In this document: positions 5,552 through 14,593 of the stretch, in pieces | Layout: every line of letters begins with the position of its first letter | Position numbering within the stretch: position 1 is the first letter of the stretch | Source of the DNA: Microbacteriaceae bacterium | GTDB taxonomy: Bacteria; Actinomycetota; Actinomycetes; Actinomycetales; Microbacteriaceae | NCBI GenBank assembly: GCA_027487865.1 | Contig: JAIYCT010000003.1 | Location: 124,001-188,000 of the forward strand | Direction: 5' to 3' | Length of the DNA: 64,000 bases | The notes under the pieces: generated by a model | Seen by the model: the letters and a program-made list of their open reading frames with translations, nothing else | Database searches by the model: none | What the model was told of the DNA's origin: nothing | Program-made: the position numbers and the translations under genes

Positions 5552-5614
5552 TGCATTTAAGGTGAGCAGGGAGTCAGGTGGAACCTCCCCAAAAACCCAA
5601 GACGTCCGACACTT

Positions 5615-6352
5615 CTATCTTTTCTTGGAAAGCTGAGCCGCCTGGTTCCGGATGCCATCAATTACATCCTGAGCGTGGGTTCTTGCTGCTTCTGGCCCTT
5701 CTTTGAAAAGCTCAATACAAACAGACGCCATGATTCCAGGTGTGATGCCGTTTTGGCTATCGCCTGCGATGGCAGAAACTCTTGGGCGGTTGCTGACTGC
5801 AATGTCCGCGACAAATCCGTTGTCGCCGGTTGAGAAGTTGATCAGTTTGTCAAACTCCCATTCACGGGCATGGTTAGGACCTGCGAACAAGATTCTCTGG
5901 TTGGTGAAGATCACAGTACCCACGTCAAGCACGGTCTGTTCCTCTGGGTTAGGAGTAAGCGAACCTCGACTGCCGCCCAGCGTCACGCCGATGTTGTTGG
6001 TGGCACGAAGAATGACACCGGCATTGCCACTTTGGAAGCTAGAACCGGTGCCCTTGTATTCGCGAAGCTGAACCTCGCCACGTTCGTAGATTGCCTTTTC
6101 GCCCTTTTGCAATGCTAGGTAGGTATCAATACCCTCAAACTTGCTACTTATCGCCTCTAGCTCATCTGCGACCCTAACCATGTAGCCGATGTTTTTCTCT
6201 CGCTTGTATTGTCGAATTAGGTACCAGGCAATTGCGATTGCGCCAATGACTATAAAGACAACCCACCAGGCCTCAGGGTTTTGCTGAAGGTAATTGCCAG
6301 ACGATACGAAAACGAAAATCAGAACAAGAGCTCCAGCGATAAAACCGCACAT
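5615..6352 (-). CDS. two-TM protein with a PH-like cytoplasmic domain, unknown function
   Basis: This is a 245-aa protein. Two hydrophobic segments lie near the N-terminus (about 4-18, and 28-46 WWVVFIVIGAIAIAWYLI). A soluble region follows, with the pattern GTVIFTNQRILFAG ... WEFDKLINF. That pattern is typical of bacterial PH-like/SHOCT-associated domains, where a strand-turn-strand precedes a membrane-proximal role. No catalytic motif is visible. It starts 2 nt after the stop of the upstream gene, so the two form an operon reading away from the methylase-helicase pair. It may be a membrane sensor or scaffold. The family is not recognised with certainty. Confidence 0.65.
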   Translation of the reverse strand: MCGFIAGALVLIFVFVSSGNYLQQNPEAWWVVFIVIGAIAIAWYLIRQYKREKNIGYMVRVADELEAISSKFEGIDTYLALQKGEKAIYERGEVQLREYKGTGSSFQSGNAGVILRATNNIGVTLGGSRGSLTPNPEEQTVLDVGTVIFTNQRILFAGPNHAREWEFDKLINFSTGDNGFVADIAVSNRPRVSAIAGDSQNGITPGIMASVCIELFKEGPEAARTHAQDVIDGIRNQAAQLSKKR

Positions 6353-6354
6353 GG

Positions 6355-6888
6355 CTAGTTCTCCTCAATCTCAATCGGCAGCTTCACATCAAGCAGCAGC
6401 TGATAGGTATCACCGTACTTCAGTCGCGTAAGCCTCGCATCACAGGTGACTGCGCCGCCTGCGAGCCTGATGGCTTCGGCCAGGTCCTGTTGATCAGCAA
6501 CCGACAAGATTCCCACGTGAGCGCCACTTAGCTCAACCTCAACGGCGTCGGGGTTTTCAAAGACATCAATCTTTAGAAGTGCTGCAACGCCAGGCTCACC
6601 CTTTTGCATGATGTCTAGGTACTGAGTGAATGACTCAAGTGCAAAGCGGTCACCGGTAGAGGTGTCTGCCACAAGGGTGTAACTGCCATCACCCACTAGG
6701 TTCGGCAGGCTTCGCATGTATTTCTCGTAATCTGCCTGCTCACCAGCATGTTGCTGCTGAGAGTCGCGAAGGGCAGTGCGGTAATCGCCCTCTAGTTCAG
6801 TTCTCTTGTCTTTGTAGTTGCGGTAAGCAGCAAAAGCCAACTGCCCCAGCATCAAACTAACAAATGCACCAACTGATCTCTTTGCCAT
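6355..6888 (-). CDS. hypothetical protein with N-terminal hydrophobic segment
   Basis: This 177-aa protein starts at ATG 6888, where GAGGGGGAG stands directly upstream; the track start at 6918 adds ten residues and lacks such a site. The N-terminus (MAKRSVGAFVSLMLGQLAFAAYRNYKDKR) is a probable membrane segment or uncleaved signal. It is followed by a charged, probably helical stretch (ELEGDYRTALRDSQQQHAGEQADYEKYM) and a mixed domain (GDGSYTLVADTSTGDRFALESF). It is first in a two-gene unit with the PH-like membrane protein (2-nt gap) and divergent from the adenine methylase. No family recognised. Confidence 0.65.
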   Translation of the reverse strand: MAKRSVGAFVSLMLGQLAFAAYRNYKDKRTELEGDYRTALRDSQQQHAGEQADYEKYMRSLPNLVGDGSYTLVADTSTGDRFALESFTQYLDIMQKGEPGVAALLKIDVFENPDAVEVELSGAHVGILSVADQQDLAEAIRLAGGAVTCDARLTRLKYGDTYQLLLDVKLPIEIEEN

Positions 6889-7039
6889 GGCTCCCCCTCT
6901 GAAAAGACTATTCAACATTGCTGGCTTTCAGCTTCCCGTAGGCATCCGACAATAAAGATGTCAGAGGCACTCTTTAGTTTCTATTCGGGACGAGCGGGAA
7001 CCTTCGCCGTGGGTTGAAATCGCCTTCTCTTCTCAAAAA

Positions 7040-10000
7040 ATGTCCTTCGTGACAAGTAGGCTCGAAGCGAATTCAAAATTGGGGTGCAAGTTGAAGCTAA
7101 ATTCCACGAAGCAGATCACCTGGAACGTAGAAACCCAGGGGCAGGGCGTGAAGGGGCGCGAGATTCATTTCGGTCACGGTCCACAGCCAATTCAAGTAGC
7201 CGTGGCCGAAGCCCCTAGCGAGCCAACCCGCGCAGTTCTAAAGACCCTTTTTGCAGAGCGTAAAGGCAATCTAAACACCCTCATCGTTGTCGTTGTTCAC
7301 GGCGACCAGGCAAGTTTTTTCGGCCCGGATGCTGACACAGAAGTTATGCGTCAAAAGGCCTCTACGACGGAGGCTATCCTCAATTCGATTCTCGATCAGC
7401 CCAGTGAAGTTCTGGCTTACCAGCGAGCCACTTCTATATGGCGATCCAAGCAGACGACCGATCTTGTTGGCTTCACAAACAATGGTCTTTTCGCCAGTCA
7501 CTACATTCGAAGCAGCGTGAACCATCACCCAAAGTGGAAGGCCACCCAAGAGGCGTCTCTAAAGATACAAAATTTGAGAGGTTTAGAGCTCATCACCGCA
7601 TTGGGCTTTGAGGTCACTTCTCGCCCGTCAAACACCATTGTTCTCAGTGCCAAAGGCCAAGAACACCGGGCGGTCGCGATCCTGCTGGATCACTCGGAGA
7701 GCTTCGAGTCAAAAAGTACAAGACTCCAGGCGTCGCCCGTCGAGTGGAGCTTGGCCATTGCCGCAGAGCAGGGCGCTCCTTGGGTTATCGCAATCAAGGA
7801 CTCTCAGATTCGCCTTTACCCAGCTAAAGACGGCGTCGGAGTAGGGCAGAAGAGCCAGGCGGAGACCTATTTTGAAATAGACCTGCTCACAATCGATCAC
7901 GACAAGACCGGACTACTTAATTTGATTTTCTCTGCCGAGGCACTTGCCGAGGATGGAACCGCAGATGATTTGCTTGCCAACAGCCGCAAGTTCGCATCAG
8001 AACTAGGAGTTCGACTCAGGGAGCGGGTATACGAGTCCGTTGTTCCGCTGCTTGCGACCGAAGTTGCTAATCAACTCCGCTCTAAGGGTCACCAACTTGA
8101 CTCCAAGGGTCTCCAGATGTCTTATGAGCTAACCTTGCGCATTTTGTTCCGTCTTTTGTTCCAGGCTTACGCCGAGGACAGAGGCCTTCTTCCTGCGGGT
8201 AGAAATGAAAACTTCGACAAGAACAGCATGAAGCATTGGGCTCAGTACCTTCGCGATAGGGATGTGGATGCCCCCTATGGCGACGCTTCAACAATCTGGT
8301 TCGACCTGATTCAAGTTTGGGATGCAATCGACCAGGGCAATCCAGACATGCAGATCCCTGCCTACAACGGAGGTCTATTTGGCTCAAGCCCGGAACTCCA
8401 CCCAGAAGGTGCCTTAATCAGGACCCTGTCTATTCCAGATCGTGTTCTAGCCCCAGCCCTTAGAGCGTTAGTCATCGATGACAACACCGAAGACGGTGTT
8501 GCAGGCGCTGTTGACTTTAGATCGTTGAGCGTTCGTGAATTCGGAACGATTTACGAAGGCCTTCTTGAAAGCTCTCTCTCGGTTGCGGACCAGGACCTGA
8601 CGGTTGACTCTAAGGGCGCATGGGTGCCGGCAAAACCAGGCGATCAAGTGCTCGCAGCAGCAAATGAGGTTTACTTCCACTCAGCATCCGGCGAGCGCAA
8701 GGCAACTGGCTCCTACTACACACCGTCATTTATTGTGGACCACCTAATCGAGCGTTCCGTAGAGCCGGCGCTTAACAAACATTTGGCCCGAGTAAAGAGC
8801 CTGATAAACACTGGCGATCAGGCCGGTGCATACAAGCTTTTCTTTGATTTCCGAGTCGCAGACTTGGCTATGGGCTCTGCGCACTTCCTGGTCGCAGCCA
8901 TCGATAAGATCGAAACTGGCATGAGGTCGTTCTTGATCCAGCCCGGGAACCACATAGAAGGCGTAACCGCTGAGTTGATCCGACTCGAGGCTGCGGCCAG
9001 AGAGTCCCTAGGTAAAGACGAAGCTGCCTATGCTGAGATTGAGCGCCACAGCTTGCTAAGGCGGCAAATTGCACGACGTTGCATCTACGGCTTAGATATC
9101 AATTCAATGGCTGTGGAACTGTCGAGGCTGGCTATTTGGATCCACACTTTTGTGCCTGGATTACCAATGTCGAGCCTCGAGCACAATTTGGTTTGCGCAA
9201 ACAGCCTTACCGGAATCGGGTCTGTTGACGAGGGCTTAAACGCCCTAATTCCTGAGCGAGCCAAGGGGCACTCGACGTTATTCGACGACATCGTAGAGCA
9301 ATCCCTAACTCAAGCTAAGGAGCTCCTAGAGGATGTCGCGAAAGCGGATGAAGCTGATAAAAAGCAGGCTATAAAGGCTGCTGAAGTGGCGAAGAAAGCT
9401 CGTGTTGCAGCAGCAAAGTCAAAGTTGATTTTCGACCTTGCTATCGCGAATAGAAACGGGATCATCTCAATTGGTGCAGCACTTTCGGATACCGCCCTGG
9501 AGGAGCTACGCGCAAATCCGGGAGTCCAAGAGTTTGTTGAAGCAGTCCAACCAGCGCACATGCCATACCTATTTCCAGAGGTTTTCTTGAGAGACGAACC
9601 TGGATTTGACGCACTTGTTGGCAATCCCCCATGGGAGGAGCTTGTTTATGAGGAGATAAAGTTTTGGCTGGCAAGGTTCCCAGGGCTCAAAGGAAATCCA
9701 GTGTCGGTACAACGAAATCTAATGACCGAATACAGAAATCAACGAAATGACCTTTACGCCCAAATGATAAGTGAGCGTAGCAGTTCCGAGTTCATGCGTA
9801 AGGCTATTTCTTCGGGCCCGTTTCCGGGAATGGAAACCGGTCACGCTGATTTATACAAAGCTTTCGCCTGGAGGTTTTTCGAGTTACTTCGAAGCGGTGG
9901 CTTCTGTTCATTGGTTCTACCCCGTTCCGCCCTCGCAGCAAAGGGGTTGGAGCTTTGGAGGCGAACCGTTGCTGAAAGGGGCAGGTTCTCCGAAGTGGTT

Positions 10001-11077
10001 ACCCTATCGAATAAAAAGGGATGGGTCTTCAAGGGGGTGCATGAACGCTATTCTTTCGCTCTCCTGAGTCTTCAAATGGGAGTAAAGGGGGACATGGAGC
10101 TGGCTGGTCCAATCAGCTCTCCAGAAGGCTTCAAAGCACTCAAGGAGTACGCCAACACGTTCAGGAGTGAAGACGTTCTGTCTTGGAATGAGGCAGCTAG
10201 TTTCCCAAATTTGCAGAGCAAAGTTGCTGCAGAGATTTTTTCGAAAATGCGCTTGCAGCCGAGCATCAGAGCTTCAGCAAGGAGCGATTTGAGATTCGTA
10301 CCGGTCCAAGGAGACCTAAATCAGACTTCCGGAGCCTCTCTCTACTTTGCGGATGATCATTCGTCAGGTGACATGCCCGTGGTCAAGGGATCAACGTTTA
10401 ACATTTGGTCTCCGCAGGATGGTGATTTTGCAGGATCTGCTAACTCAGACACAGTTATTCCCGCGTTGCGATCGAAGTTCAGGCGAAAGTTGCCCTTGGC
10501 GCATGGCTACCCCTCTAATCCAGAGTGGCTTCCAATACTTAGCCCCAGGATCGCGTTCAGAGATATAACCAACCCAACTAACTCCAGAACCATGATTGTC
10601 TGCATGCAGCCTGCAGGAATGATCCTCCTAAATTCCGCACCCTATCTCATCAACCTAAATGGTGATGCACTGGCCGAAGCTTATCTTTTGGGCGTTCTTA
10701 GCTCCCTGCCGTTTGACTGGTACTCACGTTGCTTCGTTGAGCTGCACATGAATTTCTTCATTTTCAACTCTCTTCCAGTACCGAAATTCGATCCGGACAA
10801 CGCGGTTTGTCGTCGGGTTGCCCAAATCGCAGCTTTGCTTGCATCAGAGGACAAGCGCCTAGGAGGCTGGTTTGATTCAGCGTTGTCGATAAGCGAATCA
10901 CGCTTTGAGAGTTCGAACTTCGAACAGCTAACTGCCGAGCTCGACGGCTTGGTCTCAGCGCTCTACGAATTGACATCCGACCAACTGACCTACATTTTTG
11001 ACCATTTCCAACTCGGGTGGTCTGATTCGGGCCGTCTCGGAATCGCCCTTCAGGCCCTCAAGGAGACGAGAAAGTGA
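7040..11077 (+). CDS. large N6-adenine DNA methyltransferase (Eco57I/DISARM-like class)
   Basis: This 1345-aa protein carries a class I N6-adenine methylase core. KATGSYYTP (about 554-562) precedes the core, the AdoMet motif is DLAMGSAHFL (about 608), DINSMAVELSRLAIW follows, and the catalytic motif is NPPWE (about 862). Family members usually read DPACGSGHF at the AdoMet motif, so this copy diverges. The N-terminal 500 residues resemble the front of type IIG-like enzymes (WVIAIKDSQIRLY), but I cannot find a convincing PD-(D/E)XK nuclease. The C-terminal part is probably for target recognition (LPRSALAAKGLELWR, FIFNSLPVPKFD). Its stop overlaps the start of the PLD-helicase gene by 4 nt (GTGA), implying translational coupling. 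Likely role: modification or recognition subunit of a restriction/defence system. Confidence 0.88.
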   Translation: MSFVTSRLEANSKLGCKLKLNSTKQITWNVETQGQGVKGREIHFGHGPQPIQVAVAEAPSEPTRAVLKTLFAERKGNLNTLIVVVVHGDQASFFGPDADTEVMRQKASTTEAILNSILDQPSEVLAYQRATSIWRSKQTTDLVGFTNNGLFASHYIRSSVNHHPKWKATQEASLKIQNLRGLELITALGFEVTSRPSNTIVLSAKGQEHRAVAILLDHSESFESKSTRLQASPVEWSLAIAAEQGAPWVIAIKDSQIRLYPAKDGVGVGQKSQAETYFEIDLLTIDHDKTGLLNLIFSAEALAEDGTADDLLANSRKFASELGVRLRERVYESVVPLLATEVANQLRSKGHQLDSKGLQMSYELTLRILFRLLFQAYAEDRGLLPAGRNENFDKNSMKHWAQYLRDRDVDAPYGDASTIWFDLIQVWDAIDQGNPDMQIPAYNGGLFGSSPELHPEGALIRTLSIPDRVLAPALRALVIDDNTEDGVAGAVDFRSLSVREFGTIYEGLLESSLSVADQDLTVDSKGAWVPAKPGDQVLAAANEVYFHSASGERKATGSYYTPSFIVDHLIERSVEPALNKHLARVKSLINTGDQAGAYKLFFDFRVADLAMGSAHFLVAAIDKIETGMRSFLIQPGNHIEGVTAELIRLEAAARESLGKDEAAYAEIERHSLLRRQIARRCIYGLDINSMAVELSRLAIWIHTFVPGLPMSSLEHNLVCANSLTGIGSVDEGLNALIPERAKGHSTLFDDIVEQSLTQAKELLEDVAKADEADKKQAIKAAEVAKKARVAAAKSKLIFDLAIANRNGIISIGAALSDTALEELRANPGVQEFVEAVQPAHMPYLFPEVFLRDEPGFDALVGNPPWEELVYEEIKFWLARFPGLKGNPVSVQRNLMTEYRNQRNDLYAQMISERSSSEFMRKAISSGPFPGMETGHADLYKAFAWRFFELLRSGGFCSLVLPRSALAAKGLELWRRTVAERGRFSEVVTLSNKKGWVFKGVHERYSFALLSLQMGVKGDMELAGPISSPEGFKALKEYANTFRSEDVLSWNEAASFPNLQSKVAAEIFSKMRLQPSIRASARSDLRFVPVQGDLNQTSGASLYFADDHSSGDMPVVKGSTFNIWSPQDGDFAGSANSDTVIPALRSKFRRKLPLAHGYPSNPEWLPILSPRIAFRDITNPTNSRTMIVCMQPAGMILLNSAPYLINLNGDALAEAYLLGVLSSLPFDWYSRCFVELHMNFFIFNSLPVPKFDPDNAVCRRVAQIAALLASEDKRLGGWFDSALSISESRFESSNFEQLTAELDGLVSALYELTSDQLTYIFDHFQLGWSDSGRLGIALQALKETRK

Positions 11078-14000
11078 CTAACTATCAACCAACTTTCGCA
11101 ACTAATCGCCCAGGAAAAGGTGAGTCCGTTGAGGCTGAGGTCAATCGCCTCTTCAGATTTCTTCGAGAAAACCTCAAATCCACGCCAGAGGTTGCCATTG
11201 CGACTGCCTACATTAATCCTGCGGGATTCAACCTCTTAGCCGACGAGTTGGAGAAGGCTCCTCGCATTCGATTGCTACTTGGCGCAGAGCCAGACCAGCA
11301 ATTGATTCAAGCCAAAGTGCAAGCTGAAAAGGGTGTTGAGAAAAGACTCGCTGATGCAACTCTGTCTCATGAGGAGTGGCTAAGGCGTGAACGAGACCTT
11401 ACTGGATTCACGTTGGAGTCGCTGGCAGATGCAGAGCGCATGGTGGCCTGGCTACGTGAGGTTGACCCTGAAGGGAAGGCAAAGGTTGAGGTCAGACGCT
11501 TCACAAAAGGCTTCCTGCACGGCAAGGCTTACATTTCTTCTGCTCCTGGCATGGACGGGGTGCTTGCTGGATCCAGCAACATGACCTATGCCGGACTCAA
11601 GCTGAATGCTGAATTGAATCTTGGCTATCCGGCTGGAGATCAGCAAAACGGCAAGAAGGTTGTTGAGTGGTTTGAGGAGTATTGGGCACAGTCTGAGGAC
11701 TACGACCTTGCTGGGGTTTACGAGGCCATTTGGGCACCGCATTCCCCTTGGGATGTGTTCTTGAGAATGCTGCTGGAGCTGTATGGTTCGGTCTTGGACG
11801 AGGAGCGTCCAACAGCTGGCACATTCGACCTAGCTAGCTTCCAGTTAGATGGCATCGCGCGAATGAAGCGACTCTTGGAGACCAATGGCGGCGTGATAGT
11901 TGCAGATGAAGTTGGTCTTGGTAAGACCTTCCTTGCTGGTGAAGTTATTAGAGACGCGACAGATGAGCACAGACAACGGGTCCTAATCATTTGCCCTGCT
12001 GCCCTGAAGAGCAGCATGTGGGAGCCATTCCTGAGTAAATATGGGTTCCGACTAACAGATGTAATGTCCTATGCAGAAGTCCGAATCAAGATGGAGCCCG
12101 ACCACCCTGAACACAGGGCATTTGTGAACCAAGTTCGCGACTACGCGATGATCGTGGTTGATGAGGCTCACAATCTCCGTAACTCGGGAGCAGATCAATC
12201 TAAGGCGATTGATCGAGTGATTCTCGAGGGGAAGTATCCAAAGAAGGTTGTTCTGCTGACTGCAACCCCGGTCAACAATTCCCTTACGGATTTAGACACC
12301 CTCGTGCGTTACTTCATTCGCGATGACGCCCGTTTTGCAAACTTGGACATACCGAGCATCCGCAAGTACATTCGCCGCGCTCAGGACATGGATCCAGAGA
12401 ACCTGTCTCCTGAACACCTATTCCAGCTAATGGATCAGGTGGCTGTCAGGCGCACAAGGAAGTTCGTGAAGGAGTTCTATCCAAACGATTCCATTAAGAA
12501 TCCAAAGGGTGAATTGGTTCCGATCAAGTTCCCAACTCCAAGGGTTCGGAGAATCGACTACGACCTAAACGATGCCGCAGAGGCTTTAGTTTCTGCGGTC
12601 TTAACTGCCCTGACAATTGATGAAAAAGATGACTTGTTTTCTGCTTACACATCGGCCAAGGCGGACCCAGATCGACTGATGCTCGCTAGGTACACTCCTA
12701 GCCGTTATCTAAGAACTTCCGGCGGTGTGGAGAGAATTCAAATTCAAAACGCTGGGCTATTGCGCAGCGCTTTACTCAAGAGACTTGAGAGCTCCGCTAG
12801 GGCTTTGAGTTTCACGATCCAGACCTTGATCTCCTCCCACAGCAAGTTCATTCAGGCCATTGAAGCTGGCTACGTGCTCGAAGGAGAAGCACTTCGCGAA
12901 TGGGTTTCTTCAGACTCAGACGATCTGGAAGAGGCTCTTGCAGAGCTAGACGAGAAGGCTTTGCAAAAAGCACGTCCTGTAGCGGACTACTTCATCGACG
13001 CCCTCCTTGCCGATGCTAAGTCAGATTTGGAGTTACTGACTTCGCTATCTAAGTTGGCAGACACTGCGCTGCTTCTGGAAGACCCTAAGTTCGTTGCCCT
13101 CGCTCAACAGCTAGAGAACCTCGCTAAGCAGTCGAGGAAGCCACATCCATCAGGAGTGAGCCAAGGCGACCGTCGTAAGGTGATCGTTTTCTCCACATAC
13201 TCGGACACTGTTATTGATGTGCACGAGAGGTTGGAGAAGCTAATGACCCTTCAGCCAGAAGGGGCGATCGTTGACTACAAGGGAAGGATCGCCGAACCGC
13301 AATTTGGTTCTTATAAGTCTGTCCATAAGGCTGGTAAATCTGGTGGTGTCGATCAAGGGGGACGCGCCAACGTTATCGAGGGCTTCTCACCTAAAACCGC
13401 AAGTCGATTCAACGATGCGGGAGAGCCAACTGGTGAAGATAACTACGACATTCTGGTAACCACAGACGTCCTCGCGGAAGGTGTTAACCTCCAACAGTCT
13501 GGTCAGATCATTAACTATGACCTGCCGTGGAACCCCATGAGGATCGTTCAGCGTCATGGACGTGTTGATCGCCTCTTTAGCGAGCATGATGAAGTGCATC
13601 TAGGATTGTTTTTCCCCGCAAAGCACCTAGATGAAATGCTGGGACTTCAGAAGACTTTGGAGCGTAAGCTCGCTCAAGCTGAGGCGGCTATCGGTGCTGC
13701 CAACGTGCTGCCAGACCGCGATGGATCTTTGGATGTGATCTACCATGATCCGGCAAACATCGAGCGCGAGTTTGAAGATCTTCTTGATCGCGGAGGAGTC
13801 GGATCGGCCATTTCGGGAGAAGAGTTCCGAAGGAGGCTTTTCAAGGAACTCAATGACTTCAAACTTCTAAGAGACCAAGTTAGCCACCTTCCTTACGGGG
13901 CTGGCAGCGGATTTGTAAATCCTCGAGCTAAGAGCAACGGTTATGTATTCTGCGTGAAAATCGCCGGACACCCAGACCCCTGGTTTAGGTTCGTAAAAAC

Positions 14001-14544
14001 TAATCAAGATTGGTCAATTTCCGAACTCGATGGCAAGCCGATGATTCAAGACGAGCATTTGTTCAGTTTGACGATGGCTGACCCAAGGTCCAAAGACTTA
14101 CCAAGAGAGGTATCCGACGCGGCATTCGCCGGAGCCTTCCCTGCTTGGCAGGTCGCCCAGGCGTCAGTGCATGAGACATGGAAAAAGCTGACGGATCCTA
14201 TCAACCTCCAAGCAGAACCCCCTAAGGCCTTCCAGGATGCTGCGAGTTTTGTTCGGCAAAAAGGCGGGGAACTTGGGCCAGAGCTGCAAGCGCTAACGAT
14301 CATGAGATTGCGGAGCGTACCAAGTCGCAGGGTCTCAAACGGAATGCGAGCACTTTTGAACCAGGGCCTGAGTGATTCAGATTTGCTTTCCGAAATCGTT
14401 AAACTGCTGGACTTTGAAGGAGTACAGCCCGCGCCTGAGCCAAAGCCGCTGCCGGAAGTAAACCTTTCCGAGGTGAGGCTAATCGCATGGATGGCTGTCG
14501 CGAAAGAGGATGCGGTCAGAATTCAAGAGATGGGGTCGCAATAG
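11074..14544 (+). CDS. PLD-nuclease / SNF2-type helicase fusion
   Basis: This 1156-aa protein starts at GTG. An N-terminal phospholipase-D-like nuclease domain shows one HKD motif (HGKAYI at 149, GSSNMTY following). A superfamily 2 helicase follows: ADEVGLGKT (Walker A, about 277), DEAH (363), LTATPVNN (about 397), then the second RecA domain with TDVLAEGVNLQ and QRHGRVDR (about 826). The DEAH box and the ADEVGLGKT style place it with SNF2-like translocases, as in DISARM DrmD. A single HKD motif suggests that two subunits form the nuclease site. With the overlapping methylase it forms a two-gene module in which methylation could protect self DNA and the translocase-nuclease attack foreign DNA. 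That mechanism is inference. Confidence 0.88.
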   Translation: MTNYQPTFATNRPGKGESVEAEVNRLFRFLRENLKSTPEVAIATAYINPAGFNLLADELEKAPRIRLLLGAEPDQQLIQAKVQAEKGVEKRLADATLSHEEWLRRERDLTGFTLESLADAERMVAWLREVDPEGKAKVEVRRFTKGFLHGKAYISSAPGMDGVLAGSSNMTYAGLKLNAELNLGYPAGDQQNGKKVVEWFEEYWAQSEDYDLAGVYEAIWAPHSPWDVFLRMLLELYGSVLDEERPTAGTFDLASFQLDGIARMKRLLETNGGVIVADEVGLGKTFLAGEVIRDATDEHRQRVLIICPAALKSSMWEPFLSKYGFRLTDVMSYAEVRIKMEPDHPEHRAFVNQVRDYAMIVVDEAHNLRNSGADQSKAIDRVILEGKYPKKVVLLTATPVNNSLTDLDTLVRYFIRDDARFANLDIPSIRKYIRRAQDMDPENLSPEHLFQLMDQVAVRRTRKFVKEFYPNDSIKNPKGELVPIKFPTPRVRRIDYDLNDAAEALVSAVLTALTIDEKDDLFSAYTSAKADPDRLMLARYTPSRYLRTSGGVERIQIQNAGLLRSALLKRLESSARALSFTIQTLISSHSKFIQAIEAGYVLEGEALREWVSSDSDDLEEALAELDEKALQKARPVADYFIDALLADAKSDLELLTSLSKLADTALLLEDPKFVALAQQLENLAKQSRKPHPSGVSQGDRRKVIVFSTYSDTVIDVHERLEKLMTLQPEGAIVDYKGRIAEPQFGSYKSVHKAGKSGGVDQGGRANVIEGFSPKTASRFNDAGEPTGEDNYDILVTTDVLAEGVNLQQSGQIINYDLPWNPMRIVQRHGRVDRLFSEHDEVHLGLFFPAKHLDEMLGLQKTLERKLAQAEAAIGAANVLPDRDGSLDVIYHDPANIEREFEDLLDRGGVGSAISGEEFRRRLFKELNDFKLLRDQVSHLPYGAGSGFVNPRAKSNGYVFCVKIAGHPDPWFRFVKTNQDWSISELDGKPMIQDEHLFSLTMADPRSKDLPREVSDAAFAGAFPAWQVAQASVHETWKKLTDPINLQAEPPKAFQDAASFVRQKGGELGPELQALTIMRLRSVPSRRVSNGMRALLNQGLSDSDLLSEIVKLLDFEGVQPAPEPKPLPEVNLSEVRLIAWMAVAKEDAVRIQEMGSQ

Positions 14545-14593
14545 TCTGAGAGGCAAAGTACCAGACTGCAGACGAACGCACTAGAAGAACTAG

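Follow-up and report, generated by a model that had tools for sequence, protein, structure and literature searches.

A two-gene pair of an N6-adenine methylase and a PLD-SNF2 protein: a candidate restriction-modification system with repeat-bearing relatives

We analysed a 64,000-nt stretch of a Microbacteriaceae genome (contig JAIYCT010000003.1; hereafter the window), taken from an assembly of 1.465 Mb in 13 contigs. Two overlapping genes of this window encode an N6-adenine methylase with a fused C-terminal target-recognition-like domain (TRD) and a protein that joins a PLD nuclease to an SNF2 translocase. Comparison of their sequences suggests, with a probability of roughly 0.78, that together they form a complete restriction-modification system, driven by ATP and belonging to a distinct two-gene kind that has yet to be characterised. 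Both proteins carry the domains and motifs described below, they are constantly paired on the same strand, they have moved horizontally, no DISARM partners were detected beside them, and their recognition domain is separable.

In the mechanism that we propose, the C-terminal domain of the methylase would read a DNA site and the catalytic core would methylate adenine at that site, marking the sites of the host. The PLD-SNF2 protein would act as the restriction subunit, meeting an unmethylated site presumably in complex with the methylase-TRD protein, travelling along DNA on ATP and cutting both strands with a PLD domain that is probably paired with a second copy. The outcome would be defence against phages.

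Domains and motifs of the two proteins

An initial annotation, made from the letters and reading frames of the window, had described both genes. Their coordinates, their lengths of 1345 and 1156 aa and the 4-nt overlap between the stop of the methylase gene and the start of the PLD-SNF2 gene agree with the list of open reading frames (ORFs; Table 1). The methylase call is backed by a match to Pfam Eco57I (E 6e-17), by YYTP at residues 559-562 and by motif IV (NPPW, residues 862-865), which is kept in 28/28 aligned homologues; the pattern of motif I (DLAMGSAHFL, residues 608-617) recurs in 27 of the 28. Methylase core and TRD lie in one polypeptide, a trait of Type IIG enzymes, and the PADLOC Type IIG model PDLC03620 spans residues 47-1328 with 688 bits, compared with 236 bits for DrmMI. 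The modelled residues 541-1345 (predicted local distance difference test, pLDDT, 85.7) matched the folds of BrxX/PglX, CamA, M.BseCI, MmeI and M.TaqI, with BrxX as the best structural match (BrxX/DNA 9ewz, E 5e-16). The label TRD follows from the position and predicted fold of the C-terminal domain.

The N-terminal 540 residues were modelled with a pLDDT of 86.6 and include an alpha/beta region at residues ~120-300, whose Foldseek matches to BpuSI and DrdV are weak and non-significant (E about 0.01-0.02). No (D/E)xK is conserved across 21 methylase N-terminal sequences, and a sequence profile of this domain searched against the PDB gave nothing relevant. Tentatively, the arrangement of this region would fit a PD-(D/E)XK-like domain that is inactive. 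It is with moderate confidence that we expect the PLD protein, and not the methylase, to do the cutting.

The second protein likewise matches its first description as a PLD nuclease joined to a DEAH SNF2 translocase: PLDc_2, SNF2-rel_dom and Helicase_C were all found, with intact motifs. These comprise HGK (149-151), GSSN (166-169) and E180 in the nuclease, and Walker A (ADEVGLGKT, 277-285), DEAH (363-366) and motif VI (QRHGRVDR, 826-833) in the motor. Conservation among 60 homologues is high for a relaxed HxK...GSxN signature (59/60), DEAH (53/60) and QxxGRxDR (57/60). The solved sequences nearest to the SNF2 core are a Snf2/Rad54-family helicase and RapA, and the best PADLOC helicase model, 'HKD+Snf2', scores slightly above every PADLOC DrmD model. 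The PLD domain has H, K, N and E residues like those of BfiI; because the protein carries a single HKD-type motif, the domain is expected, by analogy with BfiI-type enzymes, to act through a dimer active site.

Table 1 Features of the gene pair and of its relatives. Positions refer to the window unless a locus is named.
Feature	Position	Strand	Basis
N6-adenine methylase with fused C-terminal recognition domain, 1345 aa	7040..11077	+	ORF, Pfam Eco57I, PADLOC Type IIG model
Methylase N-terminal region, residues ~120-300 (tentative assignment)	7397..7939	+	AlphaFold model, Foldseek, conservation
Methylase catalytic core, residues 541-1000	8660..10039	+	Conservation; fold matches of modelled residues 541-1345
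Methylase motif I	8861-8890	+	
Methylase NPPW	9623-9634	+	
QGDLN, sole linker module of the window methylase	10307..10321	+	Alignment of 35 single-frame members
C-terminal target-recognition-like domain (TRD), residues ~1113-1335	10376..11044	+	Hidden Markov model (HMM) mapping
PLD nuclease-SNF2 translocase, 1156 aa, GTG start	11074..14544	+	ORF, Pfam, PADLOC 'HKD+Snf2' 136 bits
PLD (HKD-type) nuclease domain, H149, K151, N169, E180	11176..11685	+	PLDc_2 (residues 35-204); homologue signature
SNF2 translocase core	11821..13683	+	SNF2-rel_dom, Helicase_C
9.0-kb exchanged segment with the pair and two minus-strand genes	5566..14584		Alignment with relative G014
Three-module cassette, examples	L018:8143-8432; L022:8167-8435; L159:7671-7949 (oriented with the system); L232:3357-3618; others		

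Distribution, pairing and mobility

When GTDB genomes were scanned with the PLD-SNF2 protein, about 35 long homologues came to light, belonging to Actinomycetota, Acidobacteriota, Gemmatimonadota, Rhodothermota, Planctomycetota, Chloroflexota and archaea. Further members were found on plasmids, in 9 of 397 genomes of the window's own phylum and in 20 of 345 genomes of Acidimicrobiia (the class of locus L018). The linkage implied by the initial annotation held up: among 55 non-redundant loci whose available upstream sequence reaches at least 2.5 kb, the methylase, or recognisable remnants of it, lies directly upstream on the same strand in 53, and an NTGA stop/start overlap between the two genes is common. 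The exceptions are L039, a distant spirochaete locus with the methylase downstream, and L168, an apparent loss. The pair is also present in one relative from the same family (G046), whose helicase is close to Microbacterium helicases in the tree; the window's host is thus probably a Microbacteriaceae member with a small genome. Public plasmid records call the partner a 'helicase-related protein' or 'helicase, SNF2 family' and the methylase a 'hypothetical protein'. Among phage-borne sequences, one distant match was the only hit.

In the window genome, the pair lies on an exchanged segment. DNA of the closest relative (G014; PurL 96% identical) is 90-91% identical to the window up to position 5565 and again from 14585; between these points it has an unrelated 4.75-kb segment, among the products of which an Mrr-like endonuclease and a GIY-YIG/helicase-like protein were recognised by eye. 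Beside purL in another genome of the genus (L198:1582-8655) are an SNF2 helicase of 1136 aa, an Hsp70-resembling protein of 549 aa and a 673-aa protein. Because relatives carry such other defence-like genes at the purL site and the pair is missing from all 22 other same-genus genomes searched, the site resembles a defence hotspot at which the pair is swappable cargo. At other loci, the pair is accompanied by the defence genes GmrSD, MrcB-like, Zac (ZacC), Iet and MkoA. The two minus-strand genes on the exchanged segment of the window (5615-6918; 245 and 187 aa) match no Pfam or NCBIfam family.

Two copies of the system were seen in each of the Acidimicrobiia-type genomes G492, G493, G494, G497, G498, G499 and G770. 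In Luteimicrobium album, the methylase gene is broken by an apparent transposase gene (L013:6169-7548, read by eye). An additional gene stands between the recognition ORF and the helicase at L018:9165-9959 and L019:9289-9972; the two are homologous (38% identity), and that of L018 matches RAMA (Restriction Enzyme Adenine Methylase Associated). A distant SNF2 homologue on a Citrobacter/E. coli plasmid family (L094:3172-12310) is followed by genes for DUF4391, a site-specific DNA methyltransferase and a DEAD/DEAH helicase, an arrangement that recurs on enterobacterial plasmids.

Repeat tracts and linker modules in relatives

In 29 related loci, mostly from Acidimicrobiia, simple repeats lie between the methylase core and the recognition domain or inside recognition ORFs (L011, L014, L018, L019, L020, L021, L022, L024, L031, L148, L151, L156, L158, L159, L161-L165 and the held-out L225-L234); since L158 and L231 lie at the ends of contigs from the same genome and might be two parts of a single locus, the count is 28-29. 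The window methylase has no repeats, so any switch built on them is a trait of relatives and not of the window locus. Short units are G, C, CT/GA, CAGC, GTCC, ATCC, ACCA and ACGA; longer ones are CCGAC, CCGAG, GCCGA, GATACTC, CAGCACC, AGGCCGAC, GAACACACGG and GTACCGGGAT. Unit lengths are 1, 2, 4, 5, 7, 8 or 10 nt and never a multiple of 3 (none of 3, 6 or 9). In tests that count every tract as an independent event, despite the common ancestry of the loci, the discovery set held 27 tracts in 23.5 kb of junction versus 9 in 925 kb elsewhere (p 3e-36), and ten held-out loci, fetched by methylase-core similarity and blind to repeats, held 26 in 19.0 kb, a counted region that here spans the TRDs too, versus 1 in 58.7 kb. 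In the helicase tree, repeat bearers occur in two places, a clade made up mainly of Acidimicrobiia (17/21 rows) and the pair L011 and L164 beside the clade of the window.

The frame from core to TRD is open as sequenced in the single-TRD loci L020 and L148, and adding or removing one unit gives a continuous core-TRD protein in L011, L019, L021, L156, L163, L164 and L165. Copy-number variation was seen in one cross-species pair, not within a species: (CAGC)25 is in frame in L020 and (CAGC)17 out of frame in L021, the two being 79% identical. Because a G21 run in L022 resembles a short-read artefact, the split TRD ORFs were first suspected to be assembly errors of metagenome-assembled genomes. 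We rejected this as a general explanation, as the tracts are diverse in their units and recur at the same profile positions; the restoration of the frame by one unit in seven single-TRD loci and the presence of tracts in contigs of 2.5-3.3 Mb (L163/L164, L031/L156, L226) also count against it.

The tract is followed by as many as three modules in tandem, spaced at 65-74 nt and each in a different reading frame, which code for similar peptides (W-x-x-R-P...D-x-H-x-F-x-x-D) with a QGDLN (Q), AELH (H) or RELD (D) core. All three frames were seen in fifteen loci, nearly always in the order Q-H-D. Upon changing the tract length in silico in seven loci, the methylase closed on different modules in different frames, and in 6/7 all three modules were reached within the changes tried. 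The RELD-frame stop and the start codon of a separate TRD ORF usually overlap within an NTGA (L022, L031, L151, L158, L159, L161, L162, L227, L229, L230 and L232), often with a GGAG-like ribosome site; elsewhere, the RELD, AELH or QGDLN frame continues straight through the TRD. As a separate ORF, the TRD of the repeat branch is at times present in 2-3 copies, and twelve TRD copies hold another tract at profile position ~236-243. At L232:3620-5932, three tandem TRD copies were seen, the first two broken by a G12 tract at profile position ~242.

Most single-frame members have one module type: Q in the window, L008, L029 and L087; H in L009, L026, L028 and L037; and D in L010, L016, L027, L030 and L105. 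Close relatives differ in type (L026/L027, L009/L030), and L007, L089, L093 and L106 have a different junction without a module. In Type IIL enzymes, contact residues bear on specificity. Since the three types occur as natural alleles in fixed members, they suggest by analogy a bearing of the modules on specificity.

Judged by its sequences, the repeat branch looks like a phase-variable, possibly three-way specificity switch. We put at a little under an even chance the fuller version, in which repeat slippage would pick among three linker modules in three frames, plus one to three tandem TRDs, many with a tract of their own, to form a multi-state specificity switch and not a simple on/off one. 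On/off control of the recognition subunit accounts for the data nearly as well.

Known systems and alternative readings

The surroundings of the pair were surveyed through 89 flanking proteins from 18 homologous loci, whose PADLOC matches at E <= 1e-35 fell into 16 families. Type IIG/IIL enzymes (BpuSI, DrdV, MmeI) and the phase-variable Cj0031 resemble the methylase of the pair in being large N6-adenine methylases with a C-terminal TRD. They cut with a nuclease domain of their own in one protein, whereas in the pair (D/E)xK is not conserved and nuclease and motor reside in a second protein; a module cassette that uses three frames is not reported for Cj0031. Restriction by a PLD-family nuclease powered by a superfamily 2 (SF2) motor has been characterised in CglI (PMC5737866) and SauUSI (PMC7913695). 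Nuclease and ATPase are two proteins in CglI, and SauUSI is a modification-dependent single protein, whereas recognition in the pair is expected in the methylase. CxC-ABC ATPase/Pbe-type systems also have an HKD domain fused to an SF2 helicase as effector (PbeA) but, unlike the pair, are built around an ABC ATPase and DndE, and their methylases, when present, are cytosine-type (PMC10853773).

Close in function are the DUF499-centred, BREX-related Type-2/Hma systems, which combine an HKD endonuclease N-terminal to Swi2/Snf2 with an N6-methylase partner (PMC12839542). The window protein shows this same fusion (PLDc_2 at residues 35-204, the SNF2 part from ~250), its partner is an N6-methylase, and the best structural match of the methylase half is BrxX; the pair might be such a system minus its DUF499 ATPase. 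We consider this unlikely, given that the markers DUF499 and DUF3780 are not among the 25 commonest Pfam families of the flanking proteins and that the HmaA model matches the helicase with just 76 bits. As 22 rarer Pfam families stand outside those 25, the absence of DUF499 from the flanks is likely and not proven. Neither PglZ nor BrxC is among the families listed for the flanks, and the PglX model NF033452 scores 23.5 bits against a cutoff of 500.

Rather less probable still is that the pair is mainly an epigenetic regulator (phasevarion) whose PLD-SNF2 protein would be a restriction subunit of secondary importance or in decay. Switching of a specificity region through repeats, as proposed for one branch here, is typical of phasevarions such as the Type IIG enzyme Cj0031 (PMC4889913), yet the PLD and motor motifs are conserved both in the repeat branch and in the window, whose methylase lacks the repeats.

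Very improbable is the condensed DISARM relative of the initial annotation, with PLD fused to DrmD and with DrmA and DrmB lost; in this reading the pair would act, like DISARM, on DNA that enters the cell with free 5' ends. The pair shares an adenine methylase, an SNF2 helicase and a PLD domain with DISARM (DrmMI, DrmD, DrmC), and the PADLOC/NCBIfam matches of its proteins include DrmMI and DrmD, but the PLD-SNF2 protein falls far below the DrmD equivalog cutoffs (NF038317, 153 vs 610 bits; NF038318, 122 vs 950), the methylase scores three times higher with the Type IIG model than with DrmMI, the PLD domain is fused to the motor, DrmA, DrmB and DrmC are absent from the 16 families matched in the flanks, and neither DrmA nor DrmB is among the window's own neighbours. 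Since DrmAB is the active DISARM complex (PMC9142583), a system without DrmA and DrmB cannot work as DISARM does. A constant, mobile minimal module with no DrmA/DrmB in its flanks stands; neither its descent from DISARM nor its membership in DISARM is supported, and to call DrmA/DrmB dispensed with implies an ancestry that the data do not show. We conclude that the pair is not DISARM, not BREX and probably not Hma.

A two-gene restriction-modification system is supported by intact motifs in both proteins, wide pairing and the occurrence of the TRD as separate or duplicated ORFs. The sequence-specific N6-adenine methylase fold, plasmid copies, defence-gene neighbours and the purL hotspot also count for it, and the defence role claimed in the initial annotation is very probably of the restriction type. 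Several points weigh against this interpretation. Specificity and PLD cleavage are deduced from homology; PLD proteins are sometimes dispensable, as is DrmC in DISARM (PMC9142583); the RAMA-domain gene added in some relatives means that accessory genes could be required; and the pair is rare in its own genus (0/22 other same-genus genomes searched). In the full-text literature, covered in part and without REBASE, neither the pair nor a three-frame cassette was found described.

If the restriction-modification reading is true, a widespread two-gene restriction system has been overlooked, its methylase labelled only 'hypothetical protein' in public plasmid records. It would couple a Type IIG-like methylase in trans to a PLD-SNF2 cutter, in a system small enough to move and test. 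The repeat branch would add a coding trick, in which three reading frames of one stretch store alternative modules, and its hosts are uncultured bacteria, where restriction phase variation is little studied. This raises a testable question: does the reading frame chosen by slippage alter the methylated DNA motif?

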